From: Halococcus hamelinensis 100A6
Lineage (GTDB): Archaea; Halobacteriota; Halobacteria; Halobacteriales; Halococcaceae
Reading direction: 5' to 3'
Assembly (NCBI RefSeq): GCF_000336675.1
Contig: NZ_AOMB01000041.1
Coordinates: forward strand, 34,812 to 98,811
DNA: 64,000 nucleotides
The notes under the pieces were generated by a model. The model saw only the letters and a list, made by a program, of their open reading frames with translations, was not told the origin of the DNA and did no database searches. The position numbers and the translations under genes were made by a program. This document shows positions 5,475 through 52,178 of the stretch, piece by piece (position 1 is the stretch's first letter; the number at the start of each line of letters is the position of its first letter).

Positions 5475-6125
5475 TCACTTCTCGTCGCGGCTCACTCGGA
5501 TGACCTGCATCAGCGACTCGACCGGGACGCCTTCGAGCTCCTCGACGCCGTTCTTGTCGACGAGGACGCCACAGCCGACCGGTGTGCCGCCCTCATCGGT
5601 GATGGCGTCGATGGTCTCGGTCATCGTCGTTCCACTCGTAATGGTGTCGTCGATGACGTAGCACTCCCGGCCCCGGATCTCGGCGAAGTTCCGCGAGAAG
5701 TTCCCGCTGAGGTCCTCGATGTCGCCCTCCTCCCACTGGTGCTTTCGGGGCGCGTAGGTCGCGAGGTCGGCCCCGAGTTCGAGCGCCACGGTGGTCGCGA
5801 GCGGCGTGCCGGCCTTCTCGATCCCGACCACGAGGTCGATCTCGGTGTCGTCGTGGCCGCCGAGGAGGTCCGCCATCGCGTGCCCCACGTCCGAGAGTCG
5901 GGTGCTGTCCCGACCGAGCGCGCTCCAGTCGACGTGGATGTCCGAGAGGTGGTCGGTCGACGCCGGGCTCTCGGTCGTCGTGGGCTGGGTGCTCCCGCCG
6001 CCGCGTTCGACAAGCCAGCTCGCGGTCTCGCGCGAGACGTTGAGTTCGTCGGCGATTTCGCCGTTCGAGAGCCCCTGACCAGCGAGCTCGTTCGCGCTCT
6101 CGATGAGGTCGTCGACGTTTTTCAT
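5475..6125 (-). CDS. gfcR: Transcriptional regulator GfcR (HTH plus phosphoribosyltransferase-like domain)
   Basis: 216 residues. Residues 1-42 form a helix-turn-helix (LAGQGLSNGEIADELNVSRE). From about 85 a type I PRTase fold follows, with VVGIEKAGTPLATTVALELG and a PRPP loop VIDDTITSGTTM (157-168). This architecture, once called PyrE-like, matches GfcR, which in Haloferax activates genes of the semiphosphorylative Entner-Doudoroff/glycolytic route. The ATG in front of KNVDDLIES was chosen: TATA-like CTATTAC (6144-6150, minus strand) lies about 25 bases upstream. The open frame upstream runs into repeat sequence and is not coding-like. Confidence 0.92.
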   Translation of the reverse strand: MKNVDDLIESANELAGQGLSNGEIADELNVSRETASWLVERGGGSTQPTTTESPASTDHLSDIHVDWSALGRDSTRLSDVGHAMADLLGGHDDTEIDLVVGIEKAGTPLATTVALELGADLATYAPRKHQWEEGDIEDLSGNFSRNFAEIRGRECYVIDDTITSGTTMTETIDAITDEGGTPVGCGVLVDKNGVEELEGVPVESLMQVIRVSRDEK

Positions 6126-6163
6126 GCGGGAGGGTTGGCCCGGGCTGTAATAGGTGTGTTGTC

Positions 6164-6660
6164 CCACTTTTTTCCTCCTCGGGTGCGCTGGCGCGCACCA
6201 CTCCTCGCAAAAACCTGTTCTGTCGAGTGAAGCGAGACAGAGCTCGGAAGAGCGCGGCTCTTCCAGTCGACTAAAAGGGCTGCTCGTGCCCTCGCTTCGC
6301 TCGGTCACTCGCAGTACGATTACTTCCAACTATTCCGCACAGCACAGCACCCGCCACCGCCGAAGCCCTCGGCCCTCACTCCGTTCCCGTGAGCGGAGCG
6401 AACGGTGGCACGGAGCTTCGCTCCGCTCAGTGACGAAACGGCGAAGCCGTTTCGAACCACGTGCTCCGGAGTTCGGCCCTCGCCCTTCATCCACCAGGAG
6501 AGCACAGCTCCCCTGAGCCTCGACTCACTGCCGTTCGCCGAGACACCAGGAACCGCCACCACAACCGCCGCGACCGCCACCGCGGGCCGCAACCGCACCG
6601 CCGCGGCCGCCGCCAACGGATACCGACCCCCCTTGATCCCATCGACACAGCCTACCATCG
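6164..6660 (-). repeat. Dispersed hairpin-rich intergenic element, copy A
   Basis: This 583-base gap between gfcR and the SDR gene holds no gene. It matches the regions at 21770-22296 and 50930-51246, in inverted orientation. Its outer end is CCCACTTTTTT (6163-6173). Perfect hairpins are GGAAGAGC-GCG-GCTCTTCC (6246-6264), TCTGTC...GACAGA (6219-6241), CGAAACGGC-GAA-GCCGTTTCG (6434-6454) and CGGAGC-TTC-GCTCCG (6411-6425). An 18-base stretch, CGCCCTTCATCCACCAGG (6481-6498), is identical to copy C. The far end is a GGCGGT-rich tract (6541-6620). Confidence 0.75.
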
Positions 6661-6708
6661 GGCGAGAGAATTTAGCGCCCCGACTCGGAACCCTCGGTCG
6701 AGAGCATC

Positions 6709-7563
6709 ATGGCAGACGACCTCACCGAACCCGCCGAGTTCGACCCGGACGACGTACTGACCCTCGACGACCCCTCCTTCGTACCCGAGAACGTCGCGCT
6801 CGTCACGGGCGGCGGCTCCGGGATCGGCCGGGCGACCGCGCTCGCGCTCGCGCACAACGGGCTCACGGCCGTCGCGACCGACGTCGACGACGAGGGTCTC
6901 GACGAGACCGCCGAGAAACACGACGAGCTGGACCTCGACGGCGCGATCCACACCGTCTCCGGGGACCTCACCGACGACGAAGACATCGAACACATCGTCG
7001 AGGTCGCGGCCGAGCAGGGTCAGATCCGCTTTCTCGCGAACATCGCGGGCCTGCAGACGGTGGCCCCGATCGAGGAGTTCTCGATGGACGACTACGACCT
7101 GATGCAGCAGGCGATGCTCCGCGCGCCGCTCTACCTCACGAAGCTCTGCCTGCCCCACATGCGTGCCGGCGACGGGGGCGGGGCGGTCGGAAACATGTGC
7201 TCGATCCACGGCCACTACGTCACCCGCGACAAGGTGGCCTACAACATGGCGAAGTTCGGGCTCCGCGGGCTGACCCAGTCGATCGCCGCCGAGGGCGACG
7301 GCGACGTTCGGGCCTTCTCCTTCTCGACGGCCTACGTCAAGACCCCGCTGGTGACGGACCAGATCGCCGACACCGCGGAGTCGCGCGGGATATCGGAACG
7401 CGAGGTCGTCGAGGACGTGATGCTCGGCGAGGCCAGAGTCAAGGAGATGATGGAGCCCGTCGAGGTGGCGAACGTCTTCGCGCTCGGCTTCTCGGGCCAC
7501 GCCAAACACCTCGACGGCGGCGACCTGCTCTTCGACGGCGGCTACACCCTGACCTACGACTGA
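6709..7563 (+). CDS. Short-chain dehydrogenase/reductase
   Basis: 284-residue classical SDR. NAD(P)-binding TGGGSGIG lies at 33-40, NIAG at 111-114, and the catalytic set is Ser165, Tyr178 and Lys182 (AYNMAKFG). The order and C-terminal DGGYTLTYD resemble 3-hydroxybutyrate dehydrogenase-type SDRs, but the substrate is not certain. An acidic 25-residue N-terminal extension precedes the fold, common in haloarchaea. TTTAGC near 6672 may be its TATA box. It ends flush against the convergent aspartoacylase-like gene. Confidence 0.88.
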   Translation: MADDLTEPAEFDPDDVLTLDDPSFVPENVALVTGGGSGIGRATALALAHNGLTAVATDVDDEGLDETAEKHDELDLDGAIHTVSGDLTDDEDIEHIVEVAAEQGQIRFLANIAGLQTVAPIEEFSMDDYDLMQQAMLRAPLYLTKLCLPHMRAGDGGGAVGNMCSIHGHYVTRDKVAYNMAKFGLRGLTQSIAAEGDGDVRAFSFSTAYVKTPLVTDQIADTAESRGISEREVVEDVMLGEARVKEMMEPVEVANVFALGFSGHAKHLDGGDLLFDGGYTLTYD

Positions 7564-21727: not shown

Positions 21728-21769
21728 GTGCCGACCGCGAATCGGCGTGCGAGGTCTGCGCGAGCGACG

Positions 21770-22296
21770 CGAGCGCGGGCTTGACAGAGCAAAGCTCTGC
21801 CAGTGGATGAACGAAACGAGCGGAGCGAGTGAAGCGAATCGGTTGGGGAGGCTCGTGGCTGTTGCGGGGCGGTGCTGTGCGGAGCGGTTGCGGTGGGTGG
21901 TAAGTGGTTGTACCGCGAACGAGCGGCGCGAGGTTCGACTGAAAGGAGAACCTCGATGCGAACGGGGAACGAGGCGTGGCCGACCACCGGGAGGTGGTTC
22001 GAAAATCGGAGATTTTCGTCACTGAGCGGAGCGAAGCTCCGCGAGGTCCAAAAGAGTCGGAGACTCTTTTGACGATCACGAGAGAGCTTTGCTCTCTCGA
22101 ACGACCACGACGCGAACGGCGACCGCAGGAAGCCGTGAGCGGAGTGACCCGTGAGCGAAGCGAGCGAGCGGCCCTTCTTAGTCCGCTGGAAGAGCTCCGC
22201 TCTTCCAAGCTCTGTCTCGCTTCGCTCGACAGAACAGGTTTTTGCTCGTCGGGTGCGCTCACCGCGTTCGCGCACCACTCCTCACAAAAAAGTGGC
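21770..22296 (+). repeat. Dispersed hairpin-rich intergenic element, copy B
   Basis: The 571-base gap between the EamA gene and icd holds no credible gene. It carries a string of perfect hairpins: 21785-21799 (CAGAGC/GCTCTG), 22000-22018 (CGAAAATC/GATTTTCG), 22027-22041 (CGGAGC/GCTCCG), 22049-22071 (10-bp arms), 22079-22099 (9-bp arms), 22188-22206 (GGAAGAGC/GCTCTTCC) and 22211-22233 (TCTGTC/GACAGA). ACAGGTTTTTGC follows the last. The TTTTCGTCACTGAGCGG flank recurs in copy A as GTTTCGTCACTGAGCGG. The end CCACTTTTTT (minus strand, 22286-22295) is also shared. Confidence 0.78.
22235..22291. terminator. Bidirectional T-rich terminator region
   Basis: On the plus strand GGTTTTTG (22237-22244) follows the TCTGTC/GACAGA hairpin. 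On the minus strand TTTTTT (22286-22291) lies just after the icd stop. These T-runs between convergent genes fit archaeal T-rich termination signals. Confidence 0.45.
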
Positions 22297-22298
22297 TT

Positions 22299-23540
<1,242 letters not shown>

Positions 23541-49831: not shown

Positions 49832-50899
49832 TCAGTTCTTCAGCCCGGTGCCGGTGAGCGGGACGACGACGTCGTCCTCGTCGTCGAGAACACCTCGGTC
49901 GCGGTACTCGGTGAGCGCGGCGGTCGCCACCGCGCACGTCGGTTCGACGTTGAAGCCCGCGCGACCGAGGCGGTCGTGTTCGCGGTCGGTCGCCACGGCG
50001 TCGATGGCGATCGCGTCGCCGTCGGTCGTTTCGATCGCCTCGTGGATCTCGTCGGCTCTCACTGGCTCGCGGATGTGGATGCCGTCGGCGAGGTCGTTCT
50101 CGTCGTTCGTTTCGGAACTCGCGATCGGGTCGTAGCCGGTCGCCTGTGCGCCGAGCAGTCGTGGGACTTTTCGTGTCCAGCCCGCCTCACGGAGCGCGCG
50201 GAAACCGCGATAGGCCCCGAGGAAGAGGGTGCCGTGACCGAGCGGGAGCACGACCGCGTCGGGGACCTCCCAGTCGCGTTGGGCCGCGACCTCGAAGGCG
50301 AAGGTCGCCGTGCCGACGAAGAACGCGGGGTTCCAGGCGTGGCTCGCGTACCAGCCCTCGTCTTTTCCTACTGCGTCGATGGCGGCGGCGGTCACGTCCT
50401 CGCGCGAGCCCTCGACCCGGCGGAGGGTCGCACCGGCGCGCTCGATCGCCCGGAGTTTCGCGGGTTTCGCGTCCGCCGGGGTGAATATCTCGGCGTCGAG
50501 ACCCGCGCGGGCGGCGTAGGTCGCGATGGCCGTACCGGCGTTACCGGACGAATCCTCGACCACGCGCTCGGCCCCGACTTCGAGGGCGCGCGAGACCGTG
50601 GTGGCCGCGCCGCGGTCCTTGAAGCTCCCCGTTGGCGAGACGTATTCGAGCTTGAACGCGCAGTGCCAGTCGGGCGCGTCGACCAGCGGGGTCCAGCCCT
50701 CGCCGAGGGTCGCGCGTTTCTCGACCGGGAGGAACTCGTCGAAGGTCCAGAGCCCGTCACGAGCGTCCAAGTCAGTGAACGCGGGCGCGGGGCGGTCGGG
50801 GAGCGGGCGGTCGGCGAAGTCGAGCGGGTGGCCGCAGGTGCACCGCCAGCGGTCGGCGTAAGTGGTGCCGCAGGCGGGACACCGGAGGGTCGCGGGCAT
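49832..50899 (-). CDS. thrC: Threonine synthase
   Basis: 355-residue PLP enzyme converting O-phosphohomoserine to threonine. N-terminal zinc ribbon LRCPACGTTYADRWRCTCG (Cys7, 10, 20, 22) is typical of archaeal ThrC. The PLP Lys is Lys94 in SPTGSFKDRGA; SSGNAGTAIATYAARAG and LPLGHGTLFLGAY follow; the C-terminal TGTGLK motif closes the site. Other beta-family PLP enzymes cannot be fully excluded. Ends flush with the convergent isomerase-like gene. Confidence 0.88.
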   Translation of the reverse strand: MPATLRCPACGTTYADRWRCTCGHPLDFADRPLPDRPAPAFTDLDARDGLWTFDEFLPVEKRATLGEGWTPLVDAPDWHCAFKLEYVSPTGSFKDRGAATTVSRALEVGAERVVEDSSGNAGTAIATYAARAGLDAEIFTPADAKPAKLRAIERAGATLRRVEGSREDVTAAAIDAVGKDEGWYASHAWNPAFFVGTATFAFEVAAQRDWEVPDAVVLPLGHGTLFLGAYRGFRALREAGWTRKVPRLLGAQATGYDPIASSETNDENDLADGIHIREPVRADEIHEAIETTDGDAIAIDAVATDREHDRLGRAGFNVEPTCAVATAALTEYRDRGVLDDEDDVVVPLTGTGLKN

Positions 50900-50929
50900 G
50901 GCGACGTGACGGGATCGGGTGACCAGTAG

Positions 50930-51246
50930 CTGGCGGTTCGGAGCGATTGCGGCGGCAGTGGCGGGGCGGTCGCGGTGCGGCCGCCGCCGGGCAGTGGCCG
51001 TGTGGTTGCGGTCCCTGGTGGATGAAGGGCGGAGCGCGTGAGCGAAGCGAATAGCGAACGAAGTGAGCGCGCGCGGAGGGCTTCGGCGGTGCTGTGCGGT
51101 GGCGGTTGCGGGAGTGAGTAGTGATCGTACCGCGAGCGAGTGGAACGAGCGAGCGGGCCGACGACTGACTGAAAGGAAGGAGGAGGCTTTTGATCCACAT
51201 TTTGCCAGGGAGCGAACGAAGTGAGCGACCGCAGCAAAAGGTGGGT
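50930..51246 (+). repeat. Dispersed hairpin-rich intergenic element, copy C
   Basis: The 349 bases between thrC and the aminotransferase gene have no gene. They share with copies A and B a GGCGGT/GTTGCGG-rich tract (50940-51013), CCTGGTGGATGAAGGGCG (51014-51031, identical to copy A), GAGCGAAGCGAA-type repeats, GGCTTCGGCGGTGCTGTGCGG (split here as GGCTTCGGCGG and TGCTGTGCGG), and a GATCGTACCGCGAGCGAG segment. The end, CCACCTTTTGC on the minus strand, resembles CCACTTTTTT of A and B. It is shorter and lacks the strongest hairpins of A and B. Confidence 0.65.
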
Positions 51247-51248
51247 GT

Positions 51249-52178
51249 CTAAAGGTGGGTGAACCACTCGTCGTGGTCGTCGGTGCGGCGCTCGACCAGG
51301 TCGAAGAAGGCCGACTGCAGCTCCTCGGTGACGGGGCCGCGCTCGCCGGTGCCGATGGCCGTGTCGTCGACCGAGCGGATCGGGGTGATCTCGGCGGCGG
51401 TCCCGGTAAAGAAGAGTTCGTCGGCGGTGTAGAGCTCGCCGCGGGAGATCGAGGCCGAGTCGTCGACGTCGTAGCCGCGTTCGCGCGCGAGCGTGACGAC
51501 CGATTGGCGGGTGATCCCATCCAGAATGCTCTCGGCGAAGCCCGGCGTGTGGATGGTGCCGTCGCGAACCAAAAAGAGGTTCTCGCCGGGGCCCTCGGCG
51601 ACGTTGCCCTCCTTGTTGAGCACGATGGCCTCGACGTAGCCGTTTCGCCGGGCCTCCTCGCCCGCGAGCATCGAGTTGACGTAGAGACCCGTGGTCTTGG
51701 CGTTGGTCGGGATCTGGCTCGACGCGTGCTTTCGCCACGAGGAGACCATCACGTCGACGCCGTTTTCGAGCGCCTCGTCGCCGAGGTAGGTGCCCCACGG
51801 CCAGCACGCGATGGCGGTCTGCGTCGGGCAGTCCTGCGGGCTCACGCCTAAACTATTGTAGCCGTAGAAGGCGATCGGCCGAATGTAGCACGATTCGAGG
51901 TCCTGGCGCTCGATGAGTTCGAGCGTGGCCTCGGTGAGCTCCTCGCGCGAGTGGTCGATCTCCATGTCGTACGGCTTCGCGGAGTTGTAGAACCGGTCGA
52001 GGTGTTCGTCCCACCGGAAGATCGCCGGGCCCTCCTCGGTGTCGTAGCAGCGGACGCCCTCGAAGACCCCGGAGCCGTAGTGGAGGCCGTGTGTGAGGAC
52101 GTGGACCTGCGCCTCGTCCCAGTCGACGAACTCCCCGTCCATCCAGACCGTGTCGACGTCCATCTCGTCGAATCCCAT
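51249..52178 (-). CDS. ilvE: Branched-chain amino acid aminotransferase
   Basis: 309-residue class IV PLP aminotransferase for Val, Leu and Ile. Seen: HGLHYGSGVFEGVRCYDTEEGPAIFRWDEH, YIRPIAFYGYNSLGVS, the PLP Lys161 in TNAKTTGLYVNSMLAGEEA, EGPGENLFLVRDG and ELFFTGTAAEITPI. Normal length. The ATG precedes GFDEMDVDTVW; the mRNA may be leaderless. Confidence 0.93.
   Translation of the reverse strand: MGFDEMDVDTVWMDGEFVDWDEAQVHVLTHGLHYGSGVFEGVRCYDTEEGPAIFRWDEHLDRFYNSAKPYDMEIDHSREELTEATLELIERQDLESCYIRPIAFYGYNSLGVSPQDCPTQTAIACWPWGTYLGDEALENGVDVMVSSWRKHASSQIPTNAKTTGLYVNSMLAGEEARRNGYVEAIVLNKEGNVAEGPGENLFLVRDGTIHTPGFAESILDGITRQSVVTLARERGYDVDDSASISRGELYTADELFFTGTAAEITPIRSVDDTAIGTGERGPVTEELQSAFFDLVERRTDDHDEWFTHL

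Follow-up and report, generated by a model that had tools for sequence, protein, structure and literature searches.

The window analysed here, a stretch of 64,000 nucleotides from the genome of Halococcus hamelinensis 100A6, contains three long gene-free regions, which raise the question of what they are and what they may do between the genes. The original prediction described them as hairpin-rich elements with covarying stems, possibly acting in termination, in genome structure, or as mobile DNA moved by an external transposase. The three gaps, called A, B, and C in the following, are indeed members of one dispersed non-coding intergenic repeat family, which is read here, with a probability of about 0.6 for the explanation as a whole, as a genus-wide, non-autonomous, intergenic mosaic of hairpin modules. 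All gene positions used are calls from a simple gene finder.

The assumption that the three gaps share order and sequence holds with regard to their relatedness, but not to their uniformity. In comparisons within the window, A (minus strand) matches B over 104 nt at 86% and 70 nt at 79%, B matches C over 66 nt at 80%, and A matches C over 73 nt at 75%, plus 18 identical nt. The 3' half is common to A and B, the central GCGGTGCTGTGCGG..GTACCGCGA part to B and C, and the GC tract with the CCTGGTGGATGAAGGGCG module to A and C. B does not contain CTGGTGGATGAAGGGCG, its 5' half represents a second type of element (CCAGTGGATGAACG...GGTTGGGGAGG), and it contains an extra nested hairpin cassette at about 21972-22143. 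C ends with CCACCTTTTGC instead of CCACTTTTTT. The limits of the gaps were also corrected to the entire intergenic regions (Table 1). The predicted exchange of bases on both arms of a homologous stem proved to be exact, with CGAAACGGC/GCCGTTTCG in A (6434-6442/6446-6454) and CGAAAATC/GATTTTCG in B (22000-22007/22011-22018), directly followed in both copies by GTCACTGAGCGG on the element strand, and the terminal hairpin of A (GGTGCGC/GCGCACC) is in opposite orientation in B without inversion of its flanks. Protein-coding content was rejected for all three copies, as the long ORFs crossing the gaps gave no Pfam match.

Table 1. Positions of copies A, B, and C, their flanking genes, and their hairpin modules in the window.
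Feature	Position	Strand	Remark
Copy A	6126..6708	-	entire intergenic region; element reads on minus strand
A flank: phosphoribosyltransferase-domain gene start	5475-6125	-	
A flank: short-chain dehydrogenase gene start	6709-7563	+	
3' end of A	6164..6214	-	CCACTTTTTT T-run on plus strand + terminal hairpin (GGTGCGC/GCGCACC)
H2-type hairpin of A	6286..6317	-	GTACTGC GAGTGACCGAAGCGAGCGA GGGCA
Perfect stem of A	6434..6454	-	CGAAACGGC/GCCGTTTCG, 3-nt loop (GAA on plus strand); homologous to B 22000-22018
Copy B	21728..22298	+	entire intergenic region between convergent genes
B flank: EamA transporter gene	ends 21727	+	
B flank: isocitrate dehydrogenase (icd) gene	stop 22299-22301	-	
Hairpin of B	21785..21799	+	CAGAGC-AAA-GCTCTG
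Conserved segment of B	21910..21930	+	GTACCGCGAACGAG..; usual H2 place
Hairpin of B	21930..21954	+	GAGGTTC-GA-CT-GAA-AG-GA-GAACCTC; tandem GA/GA + GAA triloop
Nested hairpin-array cassette of B	21972..22143	+	
Perfect stem of B	22000..22018	+	CGAAAATC-GGA-GATTTTCG
Hairpin of B	22026..22042	+	GCGGAGC-GAA-GCTCCGC
Hairpin of B	22049..22071	+	CAAAAGAGTC-GGA-GACTCTTTTG
Hairpin of B	22079..22099	+	CGAGAGAGC-TTT-GCTCTCTCG
Hairpin of B	22187..22207	+	TGGAAGAGC-TCC-GCTCTTCCA
3' end of B	22251..22296	+	terminal hairpin, inverted vs A, + AAAAAAGTGG
Copy C	50900..51248	+	entire intergenic region; best representative of main type
C flank: PLP-dependent enzyme gene start	49832-50899	-	
C flank: aminotransferase gene stop	51249-52178	-	
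Conserved module of C	51014..51031	+	CCTGGTGGATGAAGGGCG
H2 of C	51130..51156	+	CCGC-GA-GC-GA-GT-GGA-AC-GA-GC-GA-GCGG
Linker hairpin of C	51156..51188	+	GGCC-GA-C-GA-CT-GA-CT-GAA-AG-GA-AG-GA-G-GA-GGCT
H3 + 3' end of C	51195..51245	+	CCACATTTTGC..GCAAAAGGTGG; inner GGGAGC-GA-AC-GAA-GT-GA-GCGACC

The further copies expected from the original prediction are abundant, both in the genome of the strain itself and in ten genomes of the genus. Searches of the own genome (3.42 Mb in 46 contigs) yielded 74 matches with B, 70 with A, and 54 with C. Because an iterated profile run over 1.125 Mb of these 3.42 Mb gave 71 hits at E < 1e-4 and 74 at 1e-3, the number of copies in H. hamelinensis is extrapolated to roughly 200 genome-wide. 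All 10 genomes of the genus contain strong matches, with 119-199 first-look element candidates each, whereas matches in other genera are weak or partial. Plasmids of Natrialbaceae harbor the 3' module (H2, linker hairpin, and H3) with differing stem bases, and these partial matches suggest that the 3' module is older than the genus. Carriage of the elements by plasmids was rejected, since the plasmid matches are limited to this module, and an origin from phages was rejected because phages gave no match.

The recent history of the elements was viewed against the closest relative, G006 (median gene identity of 93.6%). The main element is present in both genomes at 15/15 collinear loci, with no empty site seen. 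The identical fraction of orthologous elements amounts to 0.565, compared to 0.853 in other intergenic DNA, and a paralogue matches better than the orthologue at about half of the collinear element loci. Differences in presence or absence were seen only for the internal cassette, which in B sits in the apical loop of the hairpin ACGGG-GA-AC[loop]GT-GA-CCCGT; this host hairpin exists empty elsewhere. Cassette copies at other places in the own genome are 91-96% identical (e.g., C10:43651-43844 and C10:55585-55750), while the cassette is absent at two orthologous sites of G006. The loop of the hairpin at 22000-22018 reads GGA in B and TCC in nearly all other cassette copies and is therefore inverted in B. 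In several cassette copies, an N gap is flanked on both sides by the identical repeat, which renders the internal structure of those copies uncertain; the window itself is free of N. As judged from these comparisons, what distinguishes copies at one locus is the replacement of modules, the nested insertion of hairpins, and inversion. Extrapolating from this one species pair, we infer that ectopic recombination or conversion among the copies would be the main route of spread and remodelling, together with insertion of hairpin units into the apices of existing hairpins.

Some further observations concern the same pair of genomes. The copy number of the cassette is expanded in the own genome. A second-type element between the same two genes is inverted in place, as seen from C41:170762-171039 in the own genome and C4:187275-187660 in G006. 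The 1.125 Mb of the own genome contain 30 N runs, eight of them near elements, and the single-N draft gaps inside cassette copies, with the same repeat on each side, represent unresolved repeats.

A connection to genome structure is found between A and B, where the intervening 15 kb are inverted in G006 relative to the own genome, with the breakpoints inside the elements. At one junction of G006 the 5' part of B up to H2 (about 21932) is joined to the 3' end of A, and at the other the 5' part of A is joined to the flank of B. As read from these junctions, the inversion is a reciprocal exchange near H2. Misassembly was rejected as its source, as A and B share at most 28 identical nt, the junctions in G006 at most 22, and neither genome contains an N there. 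Among 462 adjacent ortholog pairs of the two genomes, synteny is broken in 3/18 with an element and in 2/444 without (p = 4.8e-4), a p-value that is optimistic because two of the three element breaks are the ends of one inversion, which makes the events fewer than the breaks. Judged by gene order, the copies thus occupy rearrangement breakpoints, and the proposed role in genome structure is retained in this one concrete form, covering three of the five synteny breaks in total. The elements offer a concrete source for fast change of gene order in the genus. Separation of the flanks in eight more distant species looks dramatic, but a control stretch devoid of elements is likewise broken up in those species, and the separation was dropped as evidence for this reason.

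The features of turnover could also be expected if the elements were mobile DNA of the MITE, PATE, or SMR type, served by a transposase encoded elsewhere, which is possible, if rather unlikely. Such mobility would be in accordance with the many dispersed copies, the cassette occurring in G000 and missing at two orthologous sites of G006, the element inverted in place at C41:170762, the tandem 3'-end remnants beside some copies, and the nesting of the cassette inside hairpins, as known for SMR-A inside palindromes of Haloquadratum (PMC3119063), but it has to face the main element being shared by both species at every collinear locus. Moreover, the Y1/HUH transposase PF01797, of which the own genome contains one copy, was not found in the genomes G003 (97% complete) and G008 (99%), which contain 181 and 161 element candidates, respectively, leaving an HUH transposase unsupported as driver; TnpB was not detected by two crude motif scans of 2.3 Mb. 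Nor could terminal inverted repeats or target duplications be clearly recognised: the family consensus shows no evident terminal inverted repeat, and repeated flank motifs blur target-site duplications. A GTAG/CGTC tag beside a palindrome was not noticed on viewing the 312-column family alignment. With the Y1/HUH enzyme missing from two element-rich genomes and no empty main-element site, the mobility by an external transposase put forward in the original prediction gained no positive support, and the mosaic of hairpin modules remodelled by recombination between copies is retained as the preferred reading.

Termination, also among the functions proposed, is well supported for the 3' end of the elements by its position at stop codons and its T-runs. 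The 3' end is complete in 35 elements, 27 of which face the stop codon of a convergent gene; in 19/27 of these copies the model end is at most 2 nt from that stop codon, and all 22 copies lying within 40 nt of it contain a run of at least four T. Conversely, the motif CCAC(C/T)TTTT occurs within 40 nt past the stop in 30 genes of 1.1 Mb, 29 of which are linked to an element. Read from the convergent icd gene, the 3' end of B has the order stop-AAG-CCACTTTTTT and is probably the terminator of icd; the 3' end of C follows the aminotransferase stop directly on the minus strand (TAG-ACACCCACCTTTTGC), and one copy lies directly after a tRNA-Met gene. As inferred from its position, the 3' end (CCACCTTTT, or CCACTTTTTT on the complementary strand) very probably serves as terminator of the convergent gene. 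Such a terminator end would hold the element in place, and the elements link gene terminators to a repeat family.

Some side observations concern gene ends. Tandem decayed copies of CCCACCT lie between stop and element end at C5:215150, C5:157767, C10:3428, C7:76189, and C9:45129 and look like repeated element replacement at one spot. The aminotransferase gene end (CACCCACCTTTAG, 51246-51262 in the window) duplicates the element end (CACCCACCTTTTG), and G006 contains a single copy of this aminotransferase/element end together with a later stop (C4:98637). At C4:191408-192006 of G006 (L285), a tRNA-Met gene is separated by about 135 nt from a partial copy of its own 3' end (GGTTCAAATCTACC), and this stretch, which immediately precedes an element end, resembles an integrase footprint.

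The hairpins themselves were extracted from family hits without requiring pairing, since searching all DNA with a loose H2 regex returned only noise. The H2 alignment contains 29 distinct sequences, after exclusion of three regex false positives not starting with GA from the raw 32, and the H3 alignment 17. In H2, 96.6% of the cells are paired compared to 75.6% after shuffling (0/500 shuffles as high), and 26 cells are changed on both sides compared to 9.1; in H3, the values are 100% compared to 76.3% (beyond all 500 shuffles) and 25 compared to 9.1. The shuffle control is inflated by sequence relatedness, which the slid control retains, and the slid H2 alignments reach a paired fraction of at most 49%. 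Independent variation of the arms, the observation named beforehand as contradicting the structures, was not seen, with 97-100% standard pairs in H2 and H3. At the level of these alignments, it is the structure of the hairpins that is conserved and not their sequence.

Most stems share a common architecture of short Watson-Crick segments split by facing GA/GA and capped by a 3-nt GNA loop with a C-G closing pair. The GNA loop and the facing GA dinucleotides (the latter in 28-29/32 H2 sequences) do not vary, and the GA dinucleotides are predicted from established nucleic acid chemistry to form tandem sheared G.A pairs. In all intergenic DNA of the two species, 279 frames of the form NN-GA-NN-NNN-NN-GA-NN have all four pairs intact (about 24 expected), compared to 35, 4, and 31 with AG/AG, CA/CA, or GG/GG in place of GA/GA. 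Intergenic triloop hairpins with arms of at least 7 number 101, against about 15 after shuffling, and 90 of them are closed by C-G; perfect hairpins show a second loop-length peak at 11 nt, which fits a GA-NNNNNNN-GA apex. The apex pattern GCGAACGNAGTGAGC with a paired A-T was matched 1901 times in 134/146 Halobacteriales genomes, 466 of the matches falling into this genus, while the variants broken by one base were found 108 (A.C) and 119 (G.T) times. The paired apex is therefore kept about 16-fold over either broken variant, and a backwards-read control of the pattern was near zero.

Because this apex matches an ultra-stable DNA mini-hairpin and the tolerance of G.T does not exceed that of A.C, it is reasonably probable that the hairpins are selected or recognised as DNA, either as cruciforms or as single-strand hairpins. 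The assignment is not put higher because the folding energies of the 3' half of C are better than those of shuffles as RNA, not as DNA (Vienna; z = -2.85 as plus-strand RNA and -0.32 as DNA, where the model may under-credit GA loops); the B cassette folds well as DNA (z = -4.5). If the elements were instead structured RNAs, such as 3' UTR stabilisers, RNase-processed ends, or small RNAs, the fold of the transcript would be the conserved entity, as might be suspected from the value for C, from z-values of -5.3 and -5.8 for the two strands of B, and from the adjacency of the elements to gene ends. Tandem GA pairs are stable in RNA as well. Yet B folds equally well on both strands, G.T and A.C variants do not differ over the 146 genomes (p = 0.51) or in transcript sense (5 vs 6), and it is triloops that are enriched, whereas RNA hairpins typically carry tetraloops. 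The GA strand is not the preferred sense strand of same-direction gene pairs either, being sense in 20 and antisense in 64 cases in G000 and sense in 26 and antisense in 31 in G006, counts in which copies inside one element are not independent. Rfam models gave no match to A, B, or C, by which a known structured RNA family was rejected, and conservation as RNA is regarded as improbable. A purely mutational origin of the covariation, by which template switching during replication would copy one arm onto the other and perfect quasi-palindromes without selection, is more improbable still, since, although many stems are perfect and the inverted loop of B among near-identical copies fits hairpin-based replication errors, it would give GA..TC, yet GA..GA frames with four intact pairs outnumber these by 279 to 138, GA..GA is conserved in 28-29/32 H2, the loop is confined to GNA/ANC, and the closing pair to pyrimidine-purine.

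With selection on folded DNA thus preferred for the elements, a much wider claim may be considered, namely that haloarchaea at large maintain DNA-level hairpins with tandem sheared G.A steps and GNA caps, which are recognised in folded form by a cellular machine. This appears doubtful at present, and it rests on the variant counts in 146 genomes because the GA excess is weak in eight loose haloarchaeal loci. If true, the machine might be a structure-specific nuclease, a recombinase, or a replication factor, and folded-DNA hairpins would be used or tolerated as growth points for nested insertions, recombination sites, and gene boundaries. Covariation of hairpins, usually taken as proof of a functional RNA, is met here in repeats that give no sign of RNA in the wobble test, and the loop is a textbook DNA mini-hairpin present in 134 of the 146 haloarchaeal genomes sampled, so that selection on folded DNA becomes testable across an entire archaeal order.

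Several known systems show parallels to the family. The loop and closing pair of the apex are the same as in d(GCGAAGC) and the GNA loops of Hirao and Yoshizawa, as cited in PMC4686876, where a melting temperature of 78 C is reported for the ultra-stable mini-hairpin; it is known as a synthetic oligonucleotide, whereas it recurs here as a genomic motif with covarying pairs. T-stretches are an experimentally tested intergenic terminator of Haloferax volcanii (PMC7237163), and their position soon past the stop codon corresponds to that in the elements, where the T-run is, in contrast, the fixed end of a repeat family.

Among the repeats, the family can best be regarded as a mosaic of the REP/BIME-like kind that has a hairpin architecture of its own, has been recruited in part as terminator, and acts as a rearrangement site. 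REP/BIME and the REPINs with their RAYT in bacteria (PMC3733652, PMC3116915) are likewise intergenic, palindromic, mosaic, linked to gene ends, and of high copy number; the haloarchaeal elements differ by their length of about 310 nt, several hairpins with tandem GA/GNA architecture, and the absence of a Y1 transposase from two element-rich genomes. The PATEs and SMR-A of Haloquadratum walsbyi (PMC3119063) are also haloarchaeal, non-coding, and palindromic, with small repeats nested in palindromes, but the IS605 ends to which PATEs are related and the inverted terminal repeats of SMR-A were not seen here. SMR-A of about 110 bp insert into palindromes without duplication, whereas the B cassette of about 170 nt sits in hairpin apices, and no rearrangement has been reported for H. 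walsbyi despite its many PATE and SMR-A elements, while the elements described here sit at breakpoints. Finally, mitochondrial double-hairpin elements, GC clusters, and RHE (PMC2800124) resemble the family as intergenic hairpin repeats with complementary substitutions and tandem arrays, and GC clusters are known recombination sites. Genome and composition differ between the two groups, and the placement at terminators and the GA/GNA architecture are specific to the haloarchaeal elements.
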